From Verrucomicrobiales bacterium (lineage in GTDB: Bacteria > Verrucomicrobiota > Verrucomicrobiia > Verrucomicrobiales > DEV007), in contig JAEUHH010000039.1 in the NCBI GenBank assembly GCA_016795505.1, forward strand, positions 1 to 43,664: a stretch of 43,664 nucleotides of DNA. Direction: 5' to 3'. The notes beneath the pieces were generated by a model. The model did no database searches, was not told the origin of the DNA, and was given only the letters and a program-made list of their open reading frames with translations. Each line of letters opens with the position of its first letter. Within the stretch, counting starts at the first letter, position 1. Of this stretch, positions 16,619-42,207 are shown in pieces. Made by a program: the position numbers and the translations under genes.

Positions 16619-17962
16619 TCACTGCATCGGCAACTTCAATTCCACCCGCTGCCCGCCCCGCAGCACCACCGCCGGCAGTTGCGCCGGCTTCAGATGCTTT
16701 TGCAGCAGTGTGCCGATGAACTCGCTCTCCGTCATCCGCCCGGTCAGGCCGTCCACCTCCACGATCACATCATCCTTTTGAAATCCGTTCCGCTTCGCCG
16801 CCGCGTGTTTGCCGAACTGCCCCACGCCCACCGCCAGCAACGCCAGTTGATCCGGCTTCAGGCCCCGCTTCCGCCGCTCCTCGTCCGACAAATCTTCCAG
16901 CTTCAGCCCGCCGCCAGCCATCGCCCGCATCGGCCAGGTGCCCACCCGGCGGGAAATGTCCGACTTTGTCCGCCAGCCATCCGGGAGTAAAAGCGTCAGC
17001 CGTTGCTGGTTCCCCCCGCGATCCACCACCGCCTCCAGCGTGCCCGCATCCGGCGCCCGGTGCAGCGCCCAGGCCACATCGGCCACCGACACCGGCGGCT
17101 GGCCGCCTAGACTCGCCAGTTCGTCGCCCGCCACGAATCCCGCCGCCGCCGCCATCGATCCCGGCGCCACCGCCGTCACCCGCGCCCGGCTGTCCGTCCC
17201 CAGACTGAGCCCGATCGTCTCCGGCATCGGCATCGGATAGATCAGGTCCAGCGGGATCGGCAGCCCCCGGTCGCGATAGTGGGAGCGGAACGCATCGCCC
17301 ACCATGTGGCAGTGCACACAGCTCTGCACCACCTTCCCCTCCCAATCCAGCTCCCGCTCATACTTCGCCGCCAGCGTCGGGATCTCCACTGGCACCTGAA
17401 ACGGCGCCGGCCCACCCTGCTTGCCCACCAGCGCCGCCCGGTTCGCCGGATAGCCCCGGTGGATCTCCAGCACCGCCTCCATCGCCACCCGAAAACCCGC
17501 CGTCGAGCGGTCCGCCGAGTCCTTCTGGTGCGTCCACGAGCCGAAACGCCCATACACCGTCCCGTCGCCATTGAAAAACAGCGTCGACAGCGACAAGTCG
17601 TAGTCGAACTGGAACCGCTGCAGGTCCAGCGCGTTCGCATTGATCACCCGCACACAGACGAACTGATCCAGCAGTCCCTCCAGGCCTTTCCCCTCCAGGA
17701 TGCCCGCGTCGATGCCCATGCACGACACACACGGCACACAGCGCAGCACCACCAGCAGCGGCTTCCCCGTGCGTTTCGCCTCCGCAAAGCCCTGATCCAC
17801 ATCATTGTAAAGCCAACGCGCATCCGCCTCCATCTTGGCCCGGTCCTGCCGCACCGCGCCCTCCCGGTCCTTCACCGTCTCCCCCCACACCGGCCAGACG
17901 GCCAGCAGGCCGGCCAGCCAACAAAGTCCCGATTGCATCCGTAGGTTCCGTTTCATGAGCAT
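16619..17962 (-). CDS. Exported thioredoxin-like / CxxCH / PDZ protein
   Basis: A 447-residue protein with an N-terminal signal (CWLAGLLAVWPVWG). Residues about 45-170 are thioredoxin-like, of the thioredoxin_7 kind, with CVPCVSC (Cys 75, 78 and 81) where a redox pair is expected and PLLVVLRC before it. At residues 215-219 lies CVHCH, a haem c or metal-type site. PDZ-like segments follow: SLGTDSRARVTAVAPGSMAA with GFVAGDELASLGGQP at about 245-300, and NGFQKDDVIVEVDGLTG near 395. Planctomycetes and verrucomicrobia encode proteins of this mixed type with no tested function. A periplasmic redox or folding role is the plain inference. The cupin gene overlaps or abuts its stop. The three-Cys cluster differs from a simple CxxC. 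Confidence 0.82.
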   Translation of the reverse strand: MLMKRNLRMQSGLCWLAGLLAVWPVWGETVKDREGAVRQDRAKMEADARWLYNDVDQGFAEAKRTGKPLLVVLRCVPCVSCMGIDAGILEGKGLEGLLDQFVCVRVINANALDLQRFQFDYDLSLSTLFFNGDGTVYGRFGSWTHQKDSADRSTAGFRVAMEAVLEIHRGYPANRAALVGKQGGPAPFQVPVEIPTLAAKYERELDWEGKVVQSCVHCHMVGDAFRSHYRDRGLPIPLDLIYPMPMPETIGLSLGTDSRARVTAVAPGSMAAAAGFVAGDELASLGGQPPVSVADVAWALHRAPDAGTLEAVVDRGGNQQRLTLLLPDGWRTKSDISRRVGTWPMRAMAGGGLKLEDLSDEERRKRGLKPDQLALLAVGVGQFGKHAAAKRNGFQKDDVIVEVDGLTGRMTESEFIGTLLQKHLKPAQLPAVVLRGGQRVELKLPMQ

Positions 17963-18261: not shown

Positions 18262-18756
18262 TCAAGAATGAATAATCTGATGGACGATCTGACGCCATCG
18301 ATCCTCGGTAATACCTTGGTGTTGATCGATCGCCAGACGATGTCCGGTGGGCTCAACCGTAAAAAGAGGAGTAAAGCCCGGCGGGCGTGACTGCACGGAG
18401 AGCTTCAGATGAATGGTACTGGGATAGACGAAAATAGGACTGCATAACCAGCCAAAGTATGGAGGGTCAGCGTCTCGGTCCGCCTCGTTCCAACGATCAC
18501 ACAAGTGGGTGAAGCTCGCTCCGCTGAGCGAAGCCCAAACGGAAAATGACAAGGGCTGCTCTCGACCATGAATGGGGATCTCGATGTGGCCCCGGACAAA
18601 AAAGTGTTCCTCGTCTACGACACACAGATCTTCGGTCAGTGCCACCCGGGAATCGAACTCATCCTCCGGCACGAACGAAGGCCACGGAGCAGCTATGGCG
18701 AAGCAATCGGGTAGATCACCATGCTCTTCATCACAAATCTGGCACTTCCAAGACAT
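18262..18756 (-). CDS. DUF2199 protein
   Basis: A 164-residue cytoplasmic protein of the DUF2199 family. It begins with the family's short zinc-ribbon-like CQICDEEHGDLP, then DSRVALTEDLCVVDEEHFFV and RGHIEIPIHGREQPLSFSVW, both typical. The end, GHRLAIDQHQGITEDRW, is also conserved in type. Function is unknown. Only two Cys are close together, so the metal site, if any, needs His or Asp partners. It is a single gene on the minus strand, divergent from the protease gene at 19022 with a 265-bp gap, and its GC content looks somewhat lower than that of its neighbours, which may reflect transfer. Confidence 0.85.
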   Translation of the reverse strand: MSWKCQICDEEHGDLPDCFAIAAPWPSFVPEDEFDSRVALTEDLCVVDEEHFFVRGHIEIPIHGREQPLSFSVWASLSGASFTHLCDRWNEADRDADPPYFGWLCSPIFVYPSTIHLKLSVQSRPPGFTPLFTVEPTGHRLAIDQHQGITEDRWRQIVHQIIHS

Positions 18757-19021: not shown

Positions 19022-21262
19022 ATGAAGCAGCAGCCGACGCGATCCGTTCCCCGTGGCCTTGCCGCCATCGTTTTTGCCTGTCTCCTTGCGATCGCGCCAG
19101 TCTCCGGACGAGCCGACCTCAATCCCGATGGCCTGCGGCAGATCGACCAGCGCATCCAGTCGGTCACCCGTGCCGCCCTGCCCTGCACGGTCGCGCTGAT
19201 CCCCGGCGGACCGGCGAAGGAATACGGCACCGGCAGCGGGGTCGTGGTGAGCCCCGACGGTCTCATCCTCACCGCCGCTCACGTCACCATGGGCATGGGC
19301 GAGAAGGTCATCGTCATTTTCCCCGATGGCAAGCGCGCCAAGGGCAAGGTCCTCGGCATGGATTACACCCGCGACTCGGGCATGGTGCAGATCACTGATC
19401 CCGGGACCTATCCGCATGTGCCAGTCGGCGACTCCACCGGCCTCCAGCCCGACGACTGGTGCCTCGCCCTCGGTCACAGCGGTGGCTTCGATCCCCAGCG
19501 CACCCCGCCGGTGCGGCTCGGCCGGGTGATCCAGCACGATCCCGCCGGCTTTCTCATGACGGACTCCACCCTGATCGGCGGCGACTCGGGCGGCCCGCTG
19601 TTCGACCTCGACGGGCGGGTCATCGGCATCCATTCGAACATCGGATTCTCCCTTTCGCAGAACAACCACGTGCCCATCGCCGCCTTCCACCAGCACTGGG
19701 ACCGGCTAAAGGCTGGCGAGCGCTTCGGCGGCGATACGCCGGACAGCCTGCTGCGCCATCCCGATCTGCCGCCTCCCGACCGGGAGAAAAAAGGGAAAGC
19801 CAAGGGCAAGGGCCGGGGTAAAGGCGACGAAAAGGGCAAACCAGACGCCCCATCCGGCAAGAAATCCCCCGATCCCGATGCCGCACCCGATCCATCGGAC
19901 GATGCCGATGCGAAGAAGCCCGCGCCCGCTGATCGGCCGCCGGTCGATCCCGCCACGAAGCAAAAGCAACTCGACGCCTTTGAGCGCAAACTCCGCGAGT
20001 CCATCGAGAGTGGCGAATTCCAGATGACGCCGGCCGATGTCGACATTTTCGAGTCGCCCGAGGACTTCAAGGCCTTCATGGACCGGTTCAAAAAATCCCT
20101 CAAGCCCTCCGAGCGCCGCGCCCTGAACGATCTCGTCCGTCCGCCCACCGCGCCGCCCGCCATCCGGCCCGGGGCCTACGATCCCGACCAGCCGCTCGAT
20201 GTCGGTGACCCGATGATCCGCGCCGTCCTCGACGCCCTGCGGCCGAGTGTCTCCACGGCCTCGCAGGCGACCCACCTCGTCTTTCGCGGCGACCAGTGGC
20301 GCAGCCTCTGCACCGTGGTCCATCCCGACGGCTTTGCCGTGACCAAGGCCAGCGAGATCGAGTTGCGCCCCGGCACCGCCCCCGGCGATGCGGAACCGCT
20401 CACCGTGATGCTTTCCAAAGACCGGCAGGTCCCCGCTGAGATCCTGCAAACCTTCCCGAAGCACGACCTCGCCCTGATCCGGCTCCAGGGCGTCGAGCGC
20501 CTGCCCGCCGTGTCCTGGGCCAGCACCGGCAGCGAGAGCGACGGCGCGCCGGCCCTGCCGCTGGGCGGCCTGATCGGCGCCGCCGGCTCGGGTCCCGATG
20601 CCGTGGCCATCGGAGTCGTCAGCGTACAGCCCCGCAGCCTCGCCGGCGAGAGTGGCGGCTTCCTCGCCATCGGCACCGCTTCGCACGAGGACGGTGTGCT
20701 CGTCACCATGGTCATGCCCGGCGGAGCCGCTGCCAAGGCCGGGATCAAGAAAGGCGATGTCATCCTGTCCGTCGACGGCACCCCCTGCGACGAACCCGAG
20801 ACGCTGATCAGCAAAGTGAAAGGCACCGATCCCGGCAAGGCGATCAACGTCGAATACCGCCGCGAACAGACCGTCGTGACCGTGAAAGTCACCCTCGGCG
20901 ACCGCAGCAGTCTCGACACGATGGTGGGCGATCCCAACGCCAAGATGAACCGCATGGGCACGGATGTCAGCGAGCGCCGCACCGGCTACGAGCGCGCCCT
21001 CCAGACCGACCTGCCCATCCGCCCGCAGGAGTGCGGCGGCCCGGTGGTCGACCTCGCCGGCCGCGTGCTCGGCCTGACCATCGCGCGCGCCGGTCGCACC
21101 GCCACCTACGCGCTGCTTGCCGATGACGTGCGACGCCTCGTAGACCCGGAGATTGCCAAACGACGCGCCGCCGAGCCCCCGCGCCCGGCTTTGCCTGAGC
21201 CAAGCGGCGCCCCTGCCAAGCCAAACCGCCCTCCGCTCGGCCTGCCCGGCTTGGTGCAGTGA
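19022..21262 (+). CDS. Trypsin-like protease with a second, degenerate protease domain containing a PDZ insert
   Basis: A 746-residue exported protein. After a signal peptide, residues about 45-240 form a trypsin-like domain of the DegP type with all three catalytic residues: His87 in LTAAHV, Asp118 in YTRDSG and Ser189 in GGDSGGP. A Lys/Gly/Asp/Pro linker spans 250-315. A second protease-like domain starts near 415. It has TKASEI in place of TAAHV, keeps HDLALIRL (Asp482), and ends with QECGGPVVDLAGRVLGL (670-686), where Cys671 takes the Ser position. A PDZ domain at about 555-630 (VTMVMPGGAAAKAGIKKGDV) lies between the halves of this second domain. The start at 19022 gives the signal peptide; the longer open frame upstream does not. 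It could be a periplasmic quality-control protease with a peptide-binding pseudo-enzyme arm. Confidence 0.88.
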   Translation: MKQQPTRSVPRGLAAIVFACLLAIAPVSGRADLNPDGLRQIDQRIQSVTRAALPCTVALIPGGPAKEYGTGSGVVVSPDGLILTAAHVTMGMGEKVIVIFPDGKRAKGKVLGMDYTRDSGMVQITDPGTYPHVPVGDSTGLQPDDWCLALGHSGGFDPQRTPPVRLGRVIQHDPAGFLMTDSTLIGGDSGGPLFDLDGRVIGIHSNIGFSLSQNNHVPIAAFHQHWDRLKAGERFGGDTPDSLLRHPDLPPPDREKKGKAKGKGRGKGDEKGKPDAPSGKKSPDPDAAPDPSDDADAKKPAPADRPPVDPATKQKQLDAFERKLRESIESGEFQMTPADVDIFESPEDFKAFMDRFKKSLKPSERRALNDLVRPPTAPPAIRPGAYDPDQPLDVGDPMIRAVLDALRPSVSTASQATHLVFRGDQWRSLCTVVHPDGFAVTKASEIELRPGTAPGDAEPLTVMLSKDRQVPAEILQTFPKHDLALIRLQGVERLPAVSWASTGSESDGAPALPLGGLIGAAGSGPDAVAIGVVSVQPRSLAGESGGFLAIGTASHEDGVLVTMVMPGGAAAKAGIKKGDVILSVDGTPCDEPETLISKVKGTDPGKAINVEYRREQTVVTVKVTLGDRSSLDTMVGDPNAKMNRMGTDVSERRTGYERALQTDLPIRPQECGGPVVDLAGRVLGLTIARAGRTATYALLADDVRRLVDPEIAKRRAAEPPRPALPEPSGAPAKPNRPPLGLPGLVQ

Positions 21263-21787: not shown

Positions 21788-21865
21788 TTTCTCCCCCGGC
21801 CCTTGCCCATAGCAGGCCTTGCGCCCGTCTCCGCCGCCGCTATCGTCGTGCGCGAAAGCTCACGC

Positions 21866-23518
21866 ATGACGAACGCCATCACTCTCGACTCCCGCGACGA
21901 TCTCGCCGTCGCCCTCCGCGATCTGCCCTCCGGCTCGGCCATCACGGTCAACGGAGTGTCGGTCACCCTGCCGGAAACCATTCCCGCCAAGCAGAAATTC
22001 GCCCTGCGCCCGTTCGCACCCGGGGATCTGGCCACCATGTATGGAGTGCTCGTCGGTGAGGCCACGGCCGCCATCCCGCTCGGTGGCCTGATCACGACGG
22101 CGAACCTCACCCACCGTTCGTCGGAATACTCGGTGACCGGCCGCCCGGCCTTCCATTGGCAGGCGCCGGACGCCAGTGCCTGGATGGGACGGACTTTTGA
22201 CGGGTTCGCCCGGTCTGGCGGCTCGTTCGGAACCGCCAACCACTGGATCGTGATCCCGCTGGTGTTTTGTGAGAACCGGAACCTGATCATGATGCGCGAG
22301 GCTCTGGAGCGAGCCCTCGGCCAGGCCAAAGCCACTCCCTACGAGCGTTTCACCCGTCGGCTGGCCGATCTGCAACGCTCCGGTGCTTCCCGCGATGCCA
22401 TCCTCGCGGCCGCCATCGCCGATGATGACCGGGCCGACCGTCCGGACCGCCTTTTCCCGAATATCGACGGAGTGAAATTCCTCCTCCACGGTCTCGGCTG
22501 CGGCGGGACCAAGGACGATGCACGCACCCTCTGCGGTCTGCTGGCCGGCTACGTCACCCATCCCAACGTGGTGGGAGCCACCGTGCTGAGCCTCGGTTGC
22601 CAACACGCCCAGGTGTCCATCCTCCAGGAGGAAATCGCCCGCCGGACCCCGCATTTGGACAAACCCCTGCTGATTTTCGAGCAGCAAAAATGGCCCAGCG
22701 AAGAGCGCATGCTGGAGGCCGCCCTGCGCGAGACCTTCGCCGCTCTGGCCGACGCGAATCGCCTCACCCGCCAGCCGGCTCCTCTGTCGAAGCTCGTCTT
22801 TGGAGTCGAATGCGGCGGCAGCGATGGCTTTTCCGGCATTTCCGCCAATCCGGTCATCGGCCGCACCGCCGACCTGATCGTGGCACTGGGCGGCGGCGCG
22901 ATCTTGTCCGAATTCCCCGAACTGTGCGGCGTCGAGCAGGAGTTGGTGAACCGCTGCGTGTCCGACGAAGCCGCCGCGCGCTTCGCCGCCCTGATGCGGT
23001 CCTACTCCCGCGCCGCGGAGGCCGTGGGGGCCGGCTTTGATCAAAACCCCAGTCCGGGGAACATCCGCGACGGCCTGATCACCGACGCCATCAAGTCCGC
23101 GGGCGCCGCCAAAAAGGGCGGCACCTCCCCGATCGTCGAGGTGCTCGACTACCCGGAGAAAGTCACCCGGCCCGGCCTTTCCCTGCTCTGCACTCCCGGC
23201 GGAGACGTGGAGTCCACCACGGCGCTGGCCGGCGCCCATGCGAACCTCATGTTTTTCTCCACTGGTTTGGGCACGCCAACCGGCAATCCCATCGTCCCGG
23301 TCGTCAAAGTCTCCACCAACACGGAAATGGCGACGCGCCTCTCCGATCTGATCGACTTCGACACCGGACCGGTGATCCGCGGCGAGGCTTCGGTGGAGGA
23401 TCTCGGCGGTCGGCTGTTGGATCTGGCCATCGAGGTGGCTTCCGGCCGTCAGCTCACGAAGGCACAGGTCCTCGGGCAGGACGACTTCCTGCCCTGGAAG
23501 CGCGGCGTCTCGCTCTGA
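21866..23518 (+). CDS. uxaA: Altronate dehydratase
   Basis: A 550-residue protein of the UxaA family. The N-terminal SAF domain covers about residues 1-100 (KFALRPFAPGDLATMYGVLV). The catalytic C-terminal region includes NHWIVIPLVFCENRN, FLLHGLGCGGTKDDARTLCG, GATVLSLGCQHAQVS, FGVECGGSDGFSGISANPVI, and near the end NLMFFSTGLGTPTGNPI. UxaA dehydrates D-altronate to 2-keto-3-deoxygluconate in galacturonate breakdown and uses iron or manganese. No uxaB, uxaC or kdg genes are in the window, so another sugar acid is possible. The start at 21866 fits the SAF N-terminus; the longer frame from 21803 is unsupported. It is downstream of the strong promoter at 21483. Confidence 0.9.
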   Translation: MTNAITLDSRDDLAVALRDLPSGSAITVNGVSVTLPETIPAKQKFALRPFAPGDLATMYGVLVGEATAAIPLGGLITTANLTHRSSEYSVTGRPAFHWQAPDASAWMGRTFDGFARSGGSFGTANHWIVIPLVFCENRNLIMMREALERALGQAKATPYERFTRRLADLQRSGASRDAILAAAIADDDRADRPDRLFPNIDGVKFLLHGLGCGGTKDDARTLCGLLAGYVTHPNVVGATVLSLGCQHAQVSILQEEIARRTPHLDKPLLIFEQQKWPSEERMLEAALRETFAALADANRLTRQPAPLSKLVFGVECGGSDGFSGISANPVIGRTADLIVALGGGAILSEFPELCGVEQELVNRCVSDEAAARFAALMRSYSRAAEAVGAGFDQNPSPGNIRDGLITDAIKSAGAAKKGGTSPIVEVLDYPEKVTRPGLSLLCTPGGDVESTTALAGAHANLMFFSTGLGTPTGNPIVPVVKVSTNTEMATRLSDLIDFDTGPVIRGEASVEDLGGRLLDLAIEVASGRQLTKAQVLGQDDFLPWKRGVSL

Positions 23519-26463: not shown

Positions 26464-27954
26464 ATGAGCCGCACGTTCCTCGTCGTGGACCGGCCCGCCG
26501 ACTGGTCGATCGCCCTGCCCGATGGGGTGCGAATGATCACTCCCCGCGAGTACCTCACCGAGCCCGACCTGCAGCGGCTCCGCCGGGCCCGCGTCTTCAA
26601 TCTCTCGCGCGACTACTCCTACCAGAGCGCCGGCTACTACGTGTCCCTGCTCGCCGAGGCCCGCGGCCATCGGCCCCTCCCCAGCGTGACCACCCTGCGA
26701 CATCTGCACGGCCGCCAACCCGTCGTCACGCCCGAACTCCAGCAGGTCATCCAGTCATCCCTGTCCCGACTCCAATCCGAGGAGTTCACGCTTTCCATCT
26801 ACTTCGCCCGCAGCCTGGCCAAACGCCACGACCGGCTCGCGCGAGCCCTCTACAATCTCTTTCCCGCCCCCCTGCTCCGCGCCAATTTCGCTCTCGGCCG
26901 CAATGGCAACTGGCGCCTGCGTTCTCTCGGGCCGATTCCCGCCCGCGACATTCCTGAAAGCCACGCCGAATTCGTCAGGGAAGCCGCCCAGCGCTGGCTC
27001 CGTCGTCCCGCCGAAGCCGGTCCGCCATCCGCCGCCCGATACAACCTGGCCATCCTGATCGATCCCGCCGAGACCCTGCCGCCTTCCGATGAAGGAGCCC
27101 TGAAACGCTTCATCCGCGCCGCCGCACGCCAAAAGATCGCCGCCGAACTCATCGAGCCAGACGACCTCGGCTCTCTCGCCGAATATGACGCCCTCTTCAT
27201 CCGGGCTACCACTTCGGTTGAGAATTTCACCTTCCGCTTCGCCCGCCGCGCCGTTGACGAGGGCATACCCGTCCTCGACGATCCCGTGTCCATCCTCCGC
27301 TGCTCGAACAAGGTCTTCATGGCCGAACTCTTCGAGCGCCACCAGATTCCCGCCCCGCTGACCCGCATCCTCTACCGCGGGGCCGCCACCGATGCCCTGC
27401 GTGCCCTCGGCCTGCCCCTGGTGCTGAAACAGCCCGACTCCTCCTTTTCCCAGGGAGTCATCAAGATCAAGACCGCCGAGGAGTTCGACTCCACCTGCGC
27501 CCGCCTCTTCCAGTCCACCGACCTGCTCATCGCCCAGCAGTACCTGCCCACCGAGTTCGACTGGCGCATCGGAGTGCTCGATGGACGACCGCTCTACGCC
27601 TGCCGGTATTACATGGCCCGCGGTCACTGGCAGATCTACAAAACCACGGTTAATTCCCGGCACACCATCTCCGGCCGTTCCGACACCCTGCCCATTGAGC
27701 AGGCGCCGCCCGCCATCGTCGACACCGCCGTCCGCGCCGCCAATCTCATCGGCGACGGCTTTTATGGAGTCGACCTGAAGGAGATCAACGGGCGCCCCCT
27801 CGTCATCGAGATCAACGACAATCCGTCGATCGAGCAGGGTGTCGAAGATCTCGTGCTCAAGGACTCCCTTTACGATGCCGTCATCCAGTCCTTTGTCCGC
27901 CGCATCGAGAGCCGCCTCGCCGGCAACGTCCCTCCGGCGAACCGCCTGCCCTGA
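26464..27954 (+). CDS. RimK-like ATP-grasp protein with N-terminal RLAN-type domain
   Basis: A 496-residue protein. The first 160 residues (IALPDGVRMITPREYLTEPD, RVFNLSRDYSYQSAGYYVSL) match the RimK-like ATP-grasp N-terminal domain. From about 190 comes the ATP-grasp part: DDPVSILRCSNKVFMAELFE, PLVLKQPDSSFSQGVIK with its ATP-binding Lys, FDWRIGVLDGRPLYACRYYM, and the metal-binding end VIEINDNPSIEQGVED. RimK relatives ligate an amino acid, often glutamate, to a carboxylate of a protein or small molecule. No partner gene is obvious, so the substrate is unknown. It follows ppk2 after a 234-bp gap in which I see no other feature. Confidence 0.88.
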   Translation: MSRTFLVVDRPADWSIALPDGVRMITPREYLTEPDLQRLRRARVFNLSRDYSYQSAGYYVSLLAEARGHRPLPSVTTLRHLHGRQPVVTPELQQVIQSSLSRLQSEEFTLSIYFARSLAKRHDRLARALYNLFPAPLLRANFALGRNGNWRLRSLGPIPARDIPESHAEFVREAAQRWLRRPAEAGPPSAARYNLAILIDPAETLPPSDEGALKRFIRAAARQKIAAELIEPDDLGSLAEYDALFIRATTSVENFTFRFARRAVDEGIPVLDDPVSILRCSNKVFMAELFERHQIPAPLTRILYRGAATDALRALGLPLVLKQPDSSFSQGVIKIKTAEEFDSTCARLFQSTDLLIAQQYLPTEFDWRIGVLDGRPLYACRYYMARGHWQIYKTTVNSRHTISGRSDTLPIEQAPPAIVDTAVRAANLIGDGFYGVDLKEINGRPLVIEINDNPSIEQGVEDLVLKDSLYDAVIQSFVRRIESRLAGNVPPANRLP

Positions 27955-40457: not shown

Positions 40458-40635
40458 CTCCACGCGACGCCACCCGACCGCCGAGCCGGGCTCCGCGGCT
40501 GTTTCACGCCCCGGCCAAGTCAAGACCGCCCGGCTCTTACGCCCCAATCCCTCCCGCCAATGCGTAATCCCTTTGCCTTGCCGGCCCCCCGTTTTCGGGC
40601 TTATTTTACAATTCGGAAATTCCAAACCTGCCCCT

Positions 40636-42207
40636 ATGAACCAAAATTTTAAAACTTCACTACTCCTTGGAGTTCTGACCCTCTCACCGGCCCTTCTCCA
40701 GGCCGCCGGCCCCGACAGCATCCTGTTCAAGGACGCCGTCATGCCGATCCTAAATGCCAAGTGCGTCGCCTGTCACGGAGCCGACAAGCAGAAGGGCAAG
40801 CTGCGCCTCGATTCGCTGGAGGAAATCATGAAGGGCAGCGGCGGCGAGAACGTCATTCCCGGCAAGGTCGAGGAAAGCCTCCTCACCCATCGTGTCCTGC
40901 TCCCGGCCGATGACGACGAGCACATGCCGCCGGAAGACGAGCCGCAGTTGACCAAGGAAGAAATCGAAGTGCTTAAATTTTGGGTCGGCAGCGGCGCCAA
41001 GGCCGATGCCAAAGTCGCCGACTTGAAGCCGGCCGGCGATGTCGCCAAAGCCATCGAAGTCGTGCTCGCGAATCCGCCGAAAGGCGCCGTCGCCGCCAAT
41101 GCCAAGCCGGCCGTCGATCCCAAGGTCGCCGAAGCCATGGCCAAAGCCGCCGCCGAGACCATCGGCCGCGTGGAGAAAGAAGGAGCCTCCCTGATGGCCA
41201 TCGCCCAGGACACCCCCGACCTCCGTTTCAGCGCCCTGAATGTGGCCAAGGAATACAGCGACAAGAACCTCGAAGTCCTCAAGCCCGTCGCCGATCAGGT
41301 GAAATGGATGGACCTCGCCCGCACCCAGGTGACCGACGCCGGCCTCGCCCACCTCGCCGCGATGAAGAACCTGACCCGCGTGCATCTGGAAAACACCAAG
41401 ATCACCGACGCCGGTCTGGATCACCTCAAAGGCCTCGCCAATCTGGAGTATCTCAACCTCTACGGCACCCAGGTCACCGACGCCGGCATTGCCAAGTTGG
41501 CCGGCCTGAAGAACCTCAAGAAGCTCTTCGTCTGGCAGACCAAGGTCACCGAAGACGGTGCCAAGAAACTGGTCGCCGCCATCGCAGGCCTCGACGTGAA
41601 CACCGGCTGGAAAGAGCCCGCCAAGCCCGTGGCCGTCGCCGCCGCCACCCCCGCGGCCCCGAGTCCGGCCGCCCCGGCCCCGGCCAAGCCCGCGACCCCG
41701 GCTCCCGCCAAGCCGGCCACGCCCGCTCCGGCTCCCGCCAAGCCCGCCACCCCGGCTCCCGTGGCTGCGAAACCCGCTACGCCCACTCCGGCCCCGGCCA
41801 AGCCCGCTACGCCCACTCCGGCCCCGGCCAAGCCCGCTACGCCTGCTCCCGCACCGGCCGTCGCCGCTGCCGCTGCCGCCTCGACCCAGGCCGTCGCCGC
41901 CCTGACCGCCAAAGTTGACGCCGCCATCGCCGGAGCCACCAAGGCCGGTGACGAAGCCAAGAAGAGCGCCGCCGCCGCCGGCACCACCGCCGCCGAGGCC
42001 AAGAAGATCGCCGAAGATTCGAAGGCCAGCGTCGCCGAGGCCCGCAAGATCGCCGAGGACGCCAAAGTCGCGGCCGAATCCGCAAAGAAAGCCGCCGCCG
42101 ATGCCCAGAAGGCCGCCGAAGCCGCCAATGCCATCGCCGCTCAGGCCAAAACCGCCCTCGAGCAGCTTCAAAAAGCCGCCGCCGCCATCGCCGGCGCCGC
42201 CAAGTGA
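40636..42207 (+). CDS. Planctomycete-type cytochrome, leucine-rich-repeat, Pro/Ala linker and coiled-coil protein
   Basis: A 523-residue exported protein. After the signal (TSLLLGVLTLSPALLQAAG), residues 25-115 are a planctomycete cytochrome C-like domain with AKCVACHGADKQKGKLRLDS (CxxCH at 43-47) and HMPPEDEPQLTKEEIEVL. Residues about 205-310 hold 24-residue leucine-rich repeats of the planctomycete type (TQVTDAGLAHLAAMKNL, TKITDAGLDHLKGLANL, TQVTDAGIAKLAGLKNL). A KPATPAPA linker of about 85 residues follows, then an Ala/Lys/Glu coiled coil to the end. The linker DNA has near-identical 30-bp units at 41770-41859. The layout suggests a surface scaffold with a redox or metal site, not a conventional electron carrier. 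The start at 40636 fits the signal. A strong terminator follows at 42247. Confidence 0.92.
   Translation: MNQNFKTSLLLGVLTLSPALLQAAGPDSILFKDAVMPILNAKCVACHGADKQKGKLRLDSLEEIMKGSGGENVIPGKVEESLLTHRVLLPADDDEHMPPEDEPQLTKEEIEVLKFWVGSGAKADAKVADLKPAGDVAKAIEVVLANPPKGAVAANAKPAVDPKVAEAMAKAAAETIGRVEKEGASLMAIAQDTPDLRFSALNVAKEYSDKNLEVLKPVADQVKWMDLARTQVTDAGLAHLAAMKNLTRVHLENTKITDAGLDHLKGLANLEYLNLYGTQVTDAGIAKLAGLKNLKKLFVWQTKVTEDGAKKLVAAIAGLDVNTGWKEPAKPVAVAAATPAAPSPAAPAPAKPATPAPAKPATPAPAPAKPATPAPVAAKPATPTPAPAKPATPTPAPAKPATPAPAPAVAAAAAASTQAVAALTAKVDAAIAGATKAGDEAKKSAAAAGTTAAEAKKIAEDSKASVAEARKIAEDAKVAAESAKKAAADAQKAAEAANAIAAQAKTALEQLQKAAAAIAGAAK

Follow-up and report, generated by a model that had tools for sequence, protein, structure and literature searches.

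The window analysed here is a 43,664-nucleotide stretch of a Verrucomicrobiales genome (contig JAEUHH010000039.1). The gene under study encodes a 746-residue protein in which a predicted live trypsin-like domain (half A) is joined through a linker to a predicted pseudoprotease with a nested PDZ domain (half B). Its parts are listed in Table 1, with residues numbered from the ATG at 19022. The direct neighbours encode a DUF2199 protein (18262-18756, minus strand) and an altronate/galactarate dehydratase-like protein (21803-23515, plus strand), neither of which has an obvious functional link to the 19022 gene. The gene two places upstream (16619-17959, minus strand) encodes a thioredoxin-like/PDZ protein, which scores 349.9 bits against NF041199 (Trx7/PDZ (seleno)protein, cut-off 300). 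The window also encodes, on the plus strand, a RimK-like ATP-grasp protein with an RLAN N-terminal domain (26464-27951) and a planctomycete-type cytochrome c (PSCyt1) fused to a leucine-rich-repeat stretch (40573-42204).

Table 1. Features of the 19022 gene and its predicted product, in nucleotide positions of the window.
Feature	Residues	Position	Strand	Basis
Whole gene: predicted active trypsin-like half A, linker, predicted pseudoprotease half B	1-746	19022..21262	+	
Probable Sec signal peptide	1-31	19022..19114	+	judged by eye from sequence
Half A, predicted active HtrA-like trypsin domain	about 66-214	19217..19663	+	Trypsin_2 1.3e-34
Half A, catalytic His	87	19280..19282	+	alignment column
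Half A, catalytic Asp	118	19373..19375	+	alignment column
Half A, catalytic Ser (GGDSGGP)	189	19586..19588	+	alignment column
Linker: low-complexity Lys/Pro/Asp, then apparently helix-forming stretch	237-395	19730..20206	+	sequence
Half B, predicted pseudoprotease with nested PDZ	396-712	20207..21157	+	AlphaFold2 pLDDT 91.4; HtrA fold Z 22.8
K-A-S, replacing A-A-His of the catalytic-His motif	442-444	20345..20353	+	K 172/174, S 171/174, His 0/174
Asp at catalytic-Asp position, half B	482	20465..20467	+	172/174
Arg aligned with DegP R187, taken as the start of sensor loop L3	538	20633..20635	+	Arg in 153/174
Nested PDZ	547-625	20660..20896	+	PDZ_2 profile 2-80 of 80, 3e-15
Pseudoprotease fold, C-terminal part including former Ser loop		20969..21157	+	phmmer and structural alignment
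Cys at catalytic-Ser position, half B	671	21032..21034	+	Cys 45/79 and 23/38 (samples not selected for Cys)
R-A-G-R, two conserved Arg on the strand that follows the Ser loop	689-692	21086..21097	+	R689 170/174, R692 173/174

Relatives of half B were taken from 80 regions found by whole-genome searches, 80 loci from a scan of genome contigs (the best 80 of 184 matches to a single pattern containing Cys) and 40 regions from a Planctomycetota search. Once near-identical rows had been taken out, the set comprised 174 distinct half B sequences, the window included. The median identity among relatives is about 30% (81 rows). The nearest ones are from Verrucomicrobiales. Half B was matched at E <=1e-14 in 37 of the 387 Verrucomicrobiota genomes drawn, counting that of the window; at 1e-8 the number of matched genomes was 52, the weaker ones mostly being PDZ-only. 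For Planctomycetota, 50/294 genomes drawn contained a match at 1e-30 or better. The live-plus-dead pair is a family spread across Verrucomicrobiota and Planctomycetota and is not a one-off.

Pfam places three Trypsin_2 stretches across the protein, the best of which covers residues 71-203 of half A (1.3e-34), and the PDB relatives of this half are MucD and HhoA (1.4e-19). The first-pass annotation had located a full active site in the first domain only, which agrees with the alignment, where His87, Asp118 and Ser189 occupy the triad columns of half A. Where the column is filled, the triad is kept in every one of the 130 distinct rows (those of L063-L222 having half A, plus the window): H in 129, D in 129 and S in 130, the two gaps belonging to the contig-cut rows L065 and L080. 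All 38 of the further Planctomycetota half A sequences also carry the triad. Half A is thus, as judged by its intact triad, a live HtrA-like serine protease. Pfam found no PDZ belonging to half A itself in the window protein. The idea that half A has a shortened L3 was abandoned, the difference from MucD being only about one residue. The match of the closest fused homologues to the linker starts at residues 255-302.

For the second half of the protein, a trypsin-like fold interrupted by a complete PDZ had been proposed, an order unlike the protease-then-PDZ arrangement of DegP, and both the sequence matches and the structure predictions bear this out. The motifs named at the time are found at residues 441-446 (TKASEI), 481-488 (HDLALIRL) and 669-675 (QECGGPV), with the PDZ between the second and the third. 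Scanned alone (353 aa), half B gives a Trypsin_2 match that lies N-terminal to the PDZ (8.2e-10). A phmmer comparison with PDB sequences divides half B into three pieces, the PDZ standing between an N-terminal and a C-terminal protease part: query residues 64-145 correspond to the DegP protease domain as far as R187, 163-235 to a DegP PDZ, and 261-295 to DegP 193-227, the catalytic-Ser loop (3otp numbering). Since the pieces run in this order, the PDZ splits the protease fold after the position of DegP R187, which we assign to sensor loop L3, and ahead of the strand that leads into the Ser loop. The nested PDZ comes directly after Arg538; it occupies the position of L3 and is closely followed by the catalytic-Ser loop.

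An AlphaFold2 model of residues 396-712 was built from an alignment of 78 sequences, all of which (78/78) matched both Trypsin_2 and PDZ, and it has a mean pLDDT of 91.4 and a pTM of 0.82. On structural re-alignment with 992 comparable chains, its best matches were HtrA protease domains, with AlgW (7co5_B) at Z 22.8 and an rmsd of 2.2 over 180 residues. The range of the model aligned with AlgW is 9-317, on both sides of the PDZ, and the model's own PDZ (model residues 152-230 by Pfam) falls inside the span aligned to HtrA. The DegS chain aligned over 42-250, presumably its protease domain, ending before the DegS PDZ. A second model, of the homologue from the cultured Zavarzinella formosa DSM 19928 (pLDDT 90.8, pTM 0.78), agrees, matching HtrA at Z 25.6 over 182 residues (rmsd 2.1). 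In both models the trypsin fold is present and the PDZ lies within it, and an unrelated fold, or a PDZ outside it, was not what the predictions returned. In the plain Foldseek ranking, query-normalised TM-scores were only 0.29-0.40 among the 50 matches listed, because the PDZ of half B is placed elsewhere than in HtrA. The usual DegP order with misassigned strands was ruled out by the protease/PDZ/protease succession of the phmmer pieces and by the fact that both models span the PDZ. Likewise, a sequencing or assembly artefact was ruled out by the same order in relatives from many independent assemblies, which extend the nested arrangement to other proteins in both phyla.

The degenerate site of half B was then compared across the family. 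The reading of TKASEI as a replacement for the catalytic His is upheld, as Ser444 stands at that position and the 174 rows contain Ser 171, Glu 2, Thr 1 and His 0. HDLALIRL does keep the Asp (Asp482), and QECGGPV does place a Cys at the position of the catalytic Ser. The conservation of that Cys671 was confirmed in part: it is common but not strictly conserved. In a first sample of 79 rows the position holds Cys 45, Met 13, Ala 10, Val 7 and one each of Ile, Thr, Leu and Ser, and in a second sample of 38 it holds Cys 23, Gln 7, Met 4, Ile 2, Val 1 and Thr 1. The scan sample has Cys in 57/57 rows by construction, its search pattern containing Cys. The sole Ser at the old nucleophile position belongs to row L134, in a loop without its GG. 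With these frequencies and the 13 changes between Cys and other residues needed on the tree (FastTree), Cys671 is frequent but replaceable. Two rows (L085 and L194) read TKHSE for TKASE, which puts a His next to the lost catalytic-His position, on its N-terminal side.

Near-invariance is found elsewhere in the same region, at K442 (172), S444 (171), D482 (172), D663 (171), G680 (174), R689 (170) and R692 (173 of 174 rows), while at the median half B position the commonest residue is present in 37% of the 174 rows. Three rows (L110, L111 and L136) break the conserved K/S/D/R set with half B otherwise kept. The residues of the degenerate site are among the most conserved of half B, and therefore the dead site appears to have been rebuilt and kept, without drift. 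The conserved feature of half B is the loss of the His together with a new K-x-S / D / R..R set. These data support half B being an HtrA-fold pseudoprotease that has lost the catalytic His and Ser.

Half A and half B are closely linked. Half A shares the open frame of half B in 32 of the 174 distinct rows and lies in an adjacent upstream gene on the same strand in 134, so that the two are fused or adjacent in 166/174. Half B is therefore usually a separate gene directly downstream of the active protease and is fused to it in the window. Of the other eight rows, four are cut by a contig end (L087, L090, L098, L170). Half A was not found in the 1.8-2.4 kb upstream of B in L141, L254 and L259; in the latter two, covered over 2.3-2.4 kb, an opposite-strand frame just upstream reads, by eye, like a sugar kinase. 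Row L134 has the reversed order, with half A after half B: the pseudoprotease comes first, followed in the same open frame by a protease half with a TAAH motif, and the frame ends early. On the FastTree tree, which has long branches, the fusion state requires at least 12 changes, of which at least 4 are forced by well-supported branches; joining or splitting has therefore occurred repeatedly.

Among split pairs, 106 of 118 B frames have a start that is followed by a stretch resembling a signal peptide under a simple hydropathy rule. The median distance from the A stop to the B start is 15 nt, with overlap in 31/106 and a distance of <=100 nt in 97/106. Two or three cassettes occur in 19 of 59 genomes, and in 18 of these 19 every copy has its half A. 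Moreover, A and B distances are correlated across 166 pairs (r 0.756, against at most 0.064 in 200 permutations). With shared descent still contained in r, this demonstrates that the halves are inherited together and nothing further. No third gene conserved beside the cassette was found in the flanking frames of the 80 scan loci. These frames, many of which are probably not genes, cluster within near lineages only (largest cluster 13 loci), and a pathway drawn from neighbouring genes was dropped on these grounds.

The HtrA/Deg proteases (DegS, DegP, AlgW, MucD, HhoA), which we take to be MEROPS S1C, are the obvious comparison. Both halves share their chymotrypsin-type fold, the window protein has a peptide-reading PDZ, the L3 arginine and the QxD and GG(P) loops, and the best structural matches of half B are all HtrA in both models. 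However, HtrA carries its PDZ after the protease domain, whereas the only PDZ of the window protein lies within the second, dead protease domain. A chymotrypsin-type domain with an H-D-S triad is found in half A only, and the window protein does not have one or two PDZs C-terminal to the protease. The whole protein scores 179.9 bits against NCBIfam TIGR02037, below the cut-off of 416.2. In a 2008 survey, the PDZ was C-terminal to the trypsin domain in 112/133 multi-domain prokaryotic trypsins (PMC2605481), and a 2019 survey reports that PDZ proteins are expanded in planctomycetes (PMC6411480). The nested form is not described in the text available from either. Titles and abstract openings in the open-licence literature yielded neither a PDZ nested in a trypsin-like fold nor this pair, and a search of that literature with domain-insertion wording returned no such PDZ/trypsin case.

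The nearest functional parallel is MamO, an HtrA-fold protein without protease activity that is encoded with an active HtrA requiring it: MamO is reported to be needed for MamE-dependent proteolysis (PMC4794232). Half B is likewise encoded with an active HtrA partner in 166/174 rows, and in the same chain in the window. The same source states that activation of MamE needs the TauE domain of MamO and that contact between MamE and MamO had not been detected (PMC4794232); the precedent therefore does not itself show contact. MamO differs in keeping His and Asp, with Thr for Ser, whereas half B has lost His and Ser, and in having a TauE-like transporter domain, the term PDZ being absent from the main text (PMC4794232). 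Half B, unlike MamO, has the nested PDZ, and a Pfam scan of the window protein gave no TauE match up to E 1. Against the MamO model NF040961 (cut-off 800) the whole protein scores 46.4 bits and half B 21.2. Compared by profile score and published description, the logic of half B would resemble that of MamE/MamO, but its architecture differs. With the whole protein below the curated HtrA and MamO scores, and both surveys silent on the nested form in their available text, we regard the protein as a new form of HtrA, in which the protease has a pseudoprotease partner of its own with a PDZ nested in it.

Other proteases with built-in PDZs are more distant. In Prc/CtpB (S41) and the RseP-type site-2 proteases, a regulatory PDZ is inserted within the protease chain. 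Their catalytic folds are unrelated, however, and it is the PDZ alone that is matched in the window protein: no S41 catalytic domain was detected, TIGR00225 and the CtpA/B models matching the PDZ region only. In SpoIVB (S55) the PDZ precedes the protease domain. It too combines the trypsin-like clan with a regulatory PDZ, and its PDZ-protease arrangement has been likened to that of HtrA (PMC6581720); the SpoIVB model TIGR02860 matches only the PDZ in the window protein.

In our reading, to which we give a probability of roughly 0.6, half B is a dedicated pseudoprotease partner: its nested PDZ senses peptides or captures them, and half B regulates the live protease or supplies it. That a live and a dead copy are kept side by side in two phyla points to control of the live copy by the dead one, or to delivery of substrate to it. 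The gene product would be exported as a two-part protease, in which half A cuts and half B does not. The PDZ of half B probably binds C-terminal or exposed peptides, such as those of damaged or signalling envelope proteins. The protease-like body of half B could then dock on half A, in the manner of an HtrA subunit, and alter its activity in one direction or the other, or half B could hand the PDZ-bound substrate to half A. Either way, the labour in the window protein would be divided, with B sensing or capturing peptides and A cleaving. The conservation of the dead-site surface favours a contact or ligand role for it. In the Planctomycetota sample, half A has its own C-terminal PDZ in most split pairs, and A may therefore not need the PDZ of B there.

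The alternative that fares best takes half B as a passive adaptor or chaperone, whose PDZ and dead cleft concentrate unfolded envelope proteins near A without allostery. We judge this unlikely, although several features suit it. The PDZ is complete, and a linker of some 160 residues in the fused form would let half B reach out without being docked in one place. Moreover, some Planctomycetota have several nested PDZs, which suits substrate capture: in one clade, long fused proteins carry two in half B (L223, L225-L228, L230-L233, L242), L229 has two, its half A being encoded in another frame, and L224 carries three. Tethering, however, leaves unexplained both the high conservation of the dead catalytic region and the insertion of the PDZ inside the fold instead of at its end. 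Much less probable is an enzyme in which K442 and S444 form a relocated Ser-Lys pair in place of the lost triad. The two residues are conserved like catalytic ones, but they are two residues apart at the former His site, away from the oxyanion loop, the residue at the old Ser position drifts, and the three rows that break the set keep half B otherwise; such conserved residues could equally be structural or lie at an interface. A cysteine protease or redox switch acting through Cys671 is more improbable still. In the window, and in over half of the rows not selected for it, a Cys does take the place of the nucleophile, but no row has a His, and Met, Ala, Val, Gln, Ile, Thr and Leu all substitute for the Cys; the cysteine protease was rejected for these reasons. 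Least credible is a decaying, functionless duplicate, which would account for the lost catalytic residues but is refuted by the open frames, the linkage to half A and the near-invariant positions kept across two phyla at that median identity.

A wider form of the preferred reading, in which half B is a sensing or capturing partner, is tentative and, in our estimate, doubtful. It holds that planctomycete-verrucomicrobial bacteria have a general two-part HtrA system in which the L3-nested sensor of B switches A on in trans. In active HtrA structures, L3 is positioned between the protease domain and the PDZ and makes contact with loop LD of the adjacent subunit (PMC5003398). Peptide binding to half B would move L3, which in HtrA trimers contacts the activation loop of the neighbour. 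If true, the sensor would be separated from the catalyst. The L3 arginine (position of Arg538) is missing from most rows that have more than one PDZ, and the L3 relay may therefore not be general. HtrA is the textbook case of PDZ-controlled proteolysis, and the route by which the PDZ signal passes via L3 to the active site is still argued. A PDZ inside L3 of a non-cutting subunit, beside a live protease and in two phyla, offers a natural test system for trans-activation. It would be a second lineage, besides MamE/MamO, with a dead HtrA copy as the working partner of a live one, and the pair gives a function to seek among the numerous genes with trypsin and PDZ domains in these bacteria.

Lastly, half B is unevenly distributed among near relatives. 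In three genomes of the window's own genus (G001-G003, 86-90% complete), the protein found best matches no stronger than 1.5e-18 to 3.7e-13 among the matches listed, with no half B match among them, while other genera of the family have half B. This suggests patchy loss or transfer of half B.
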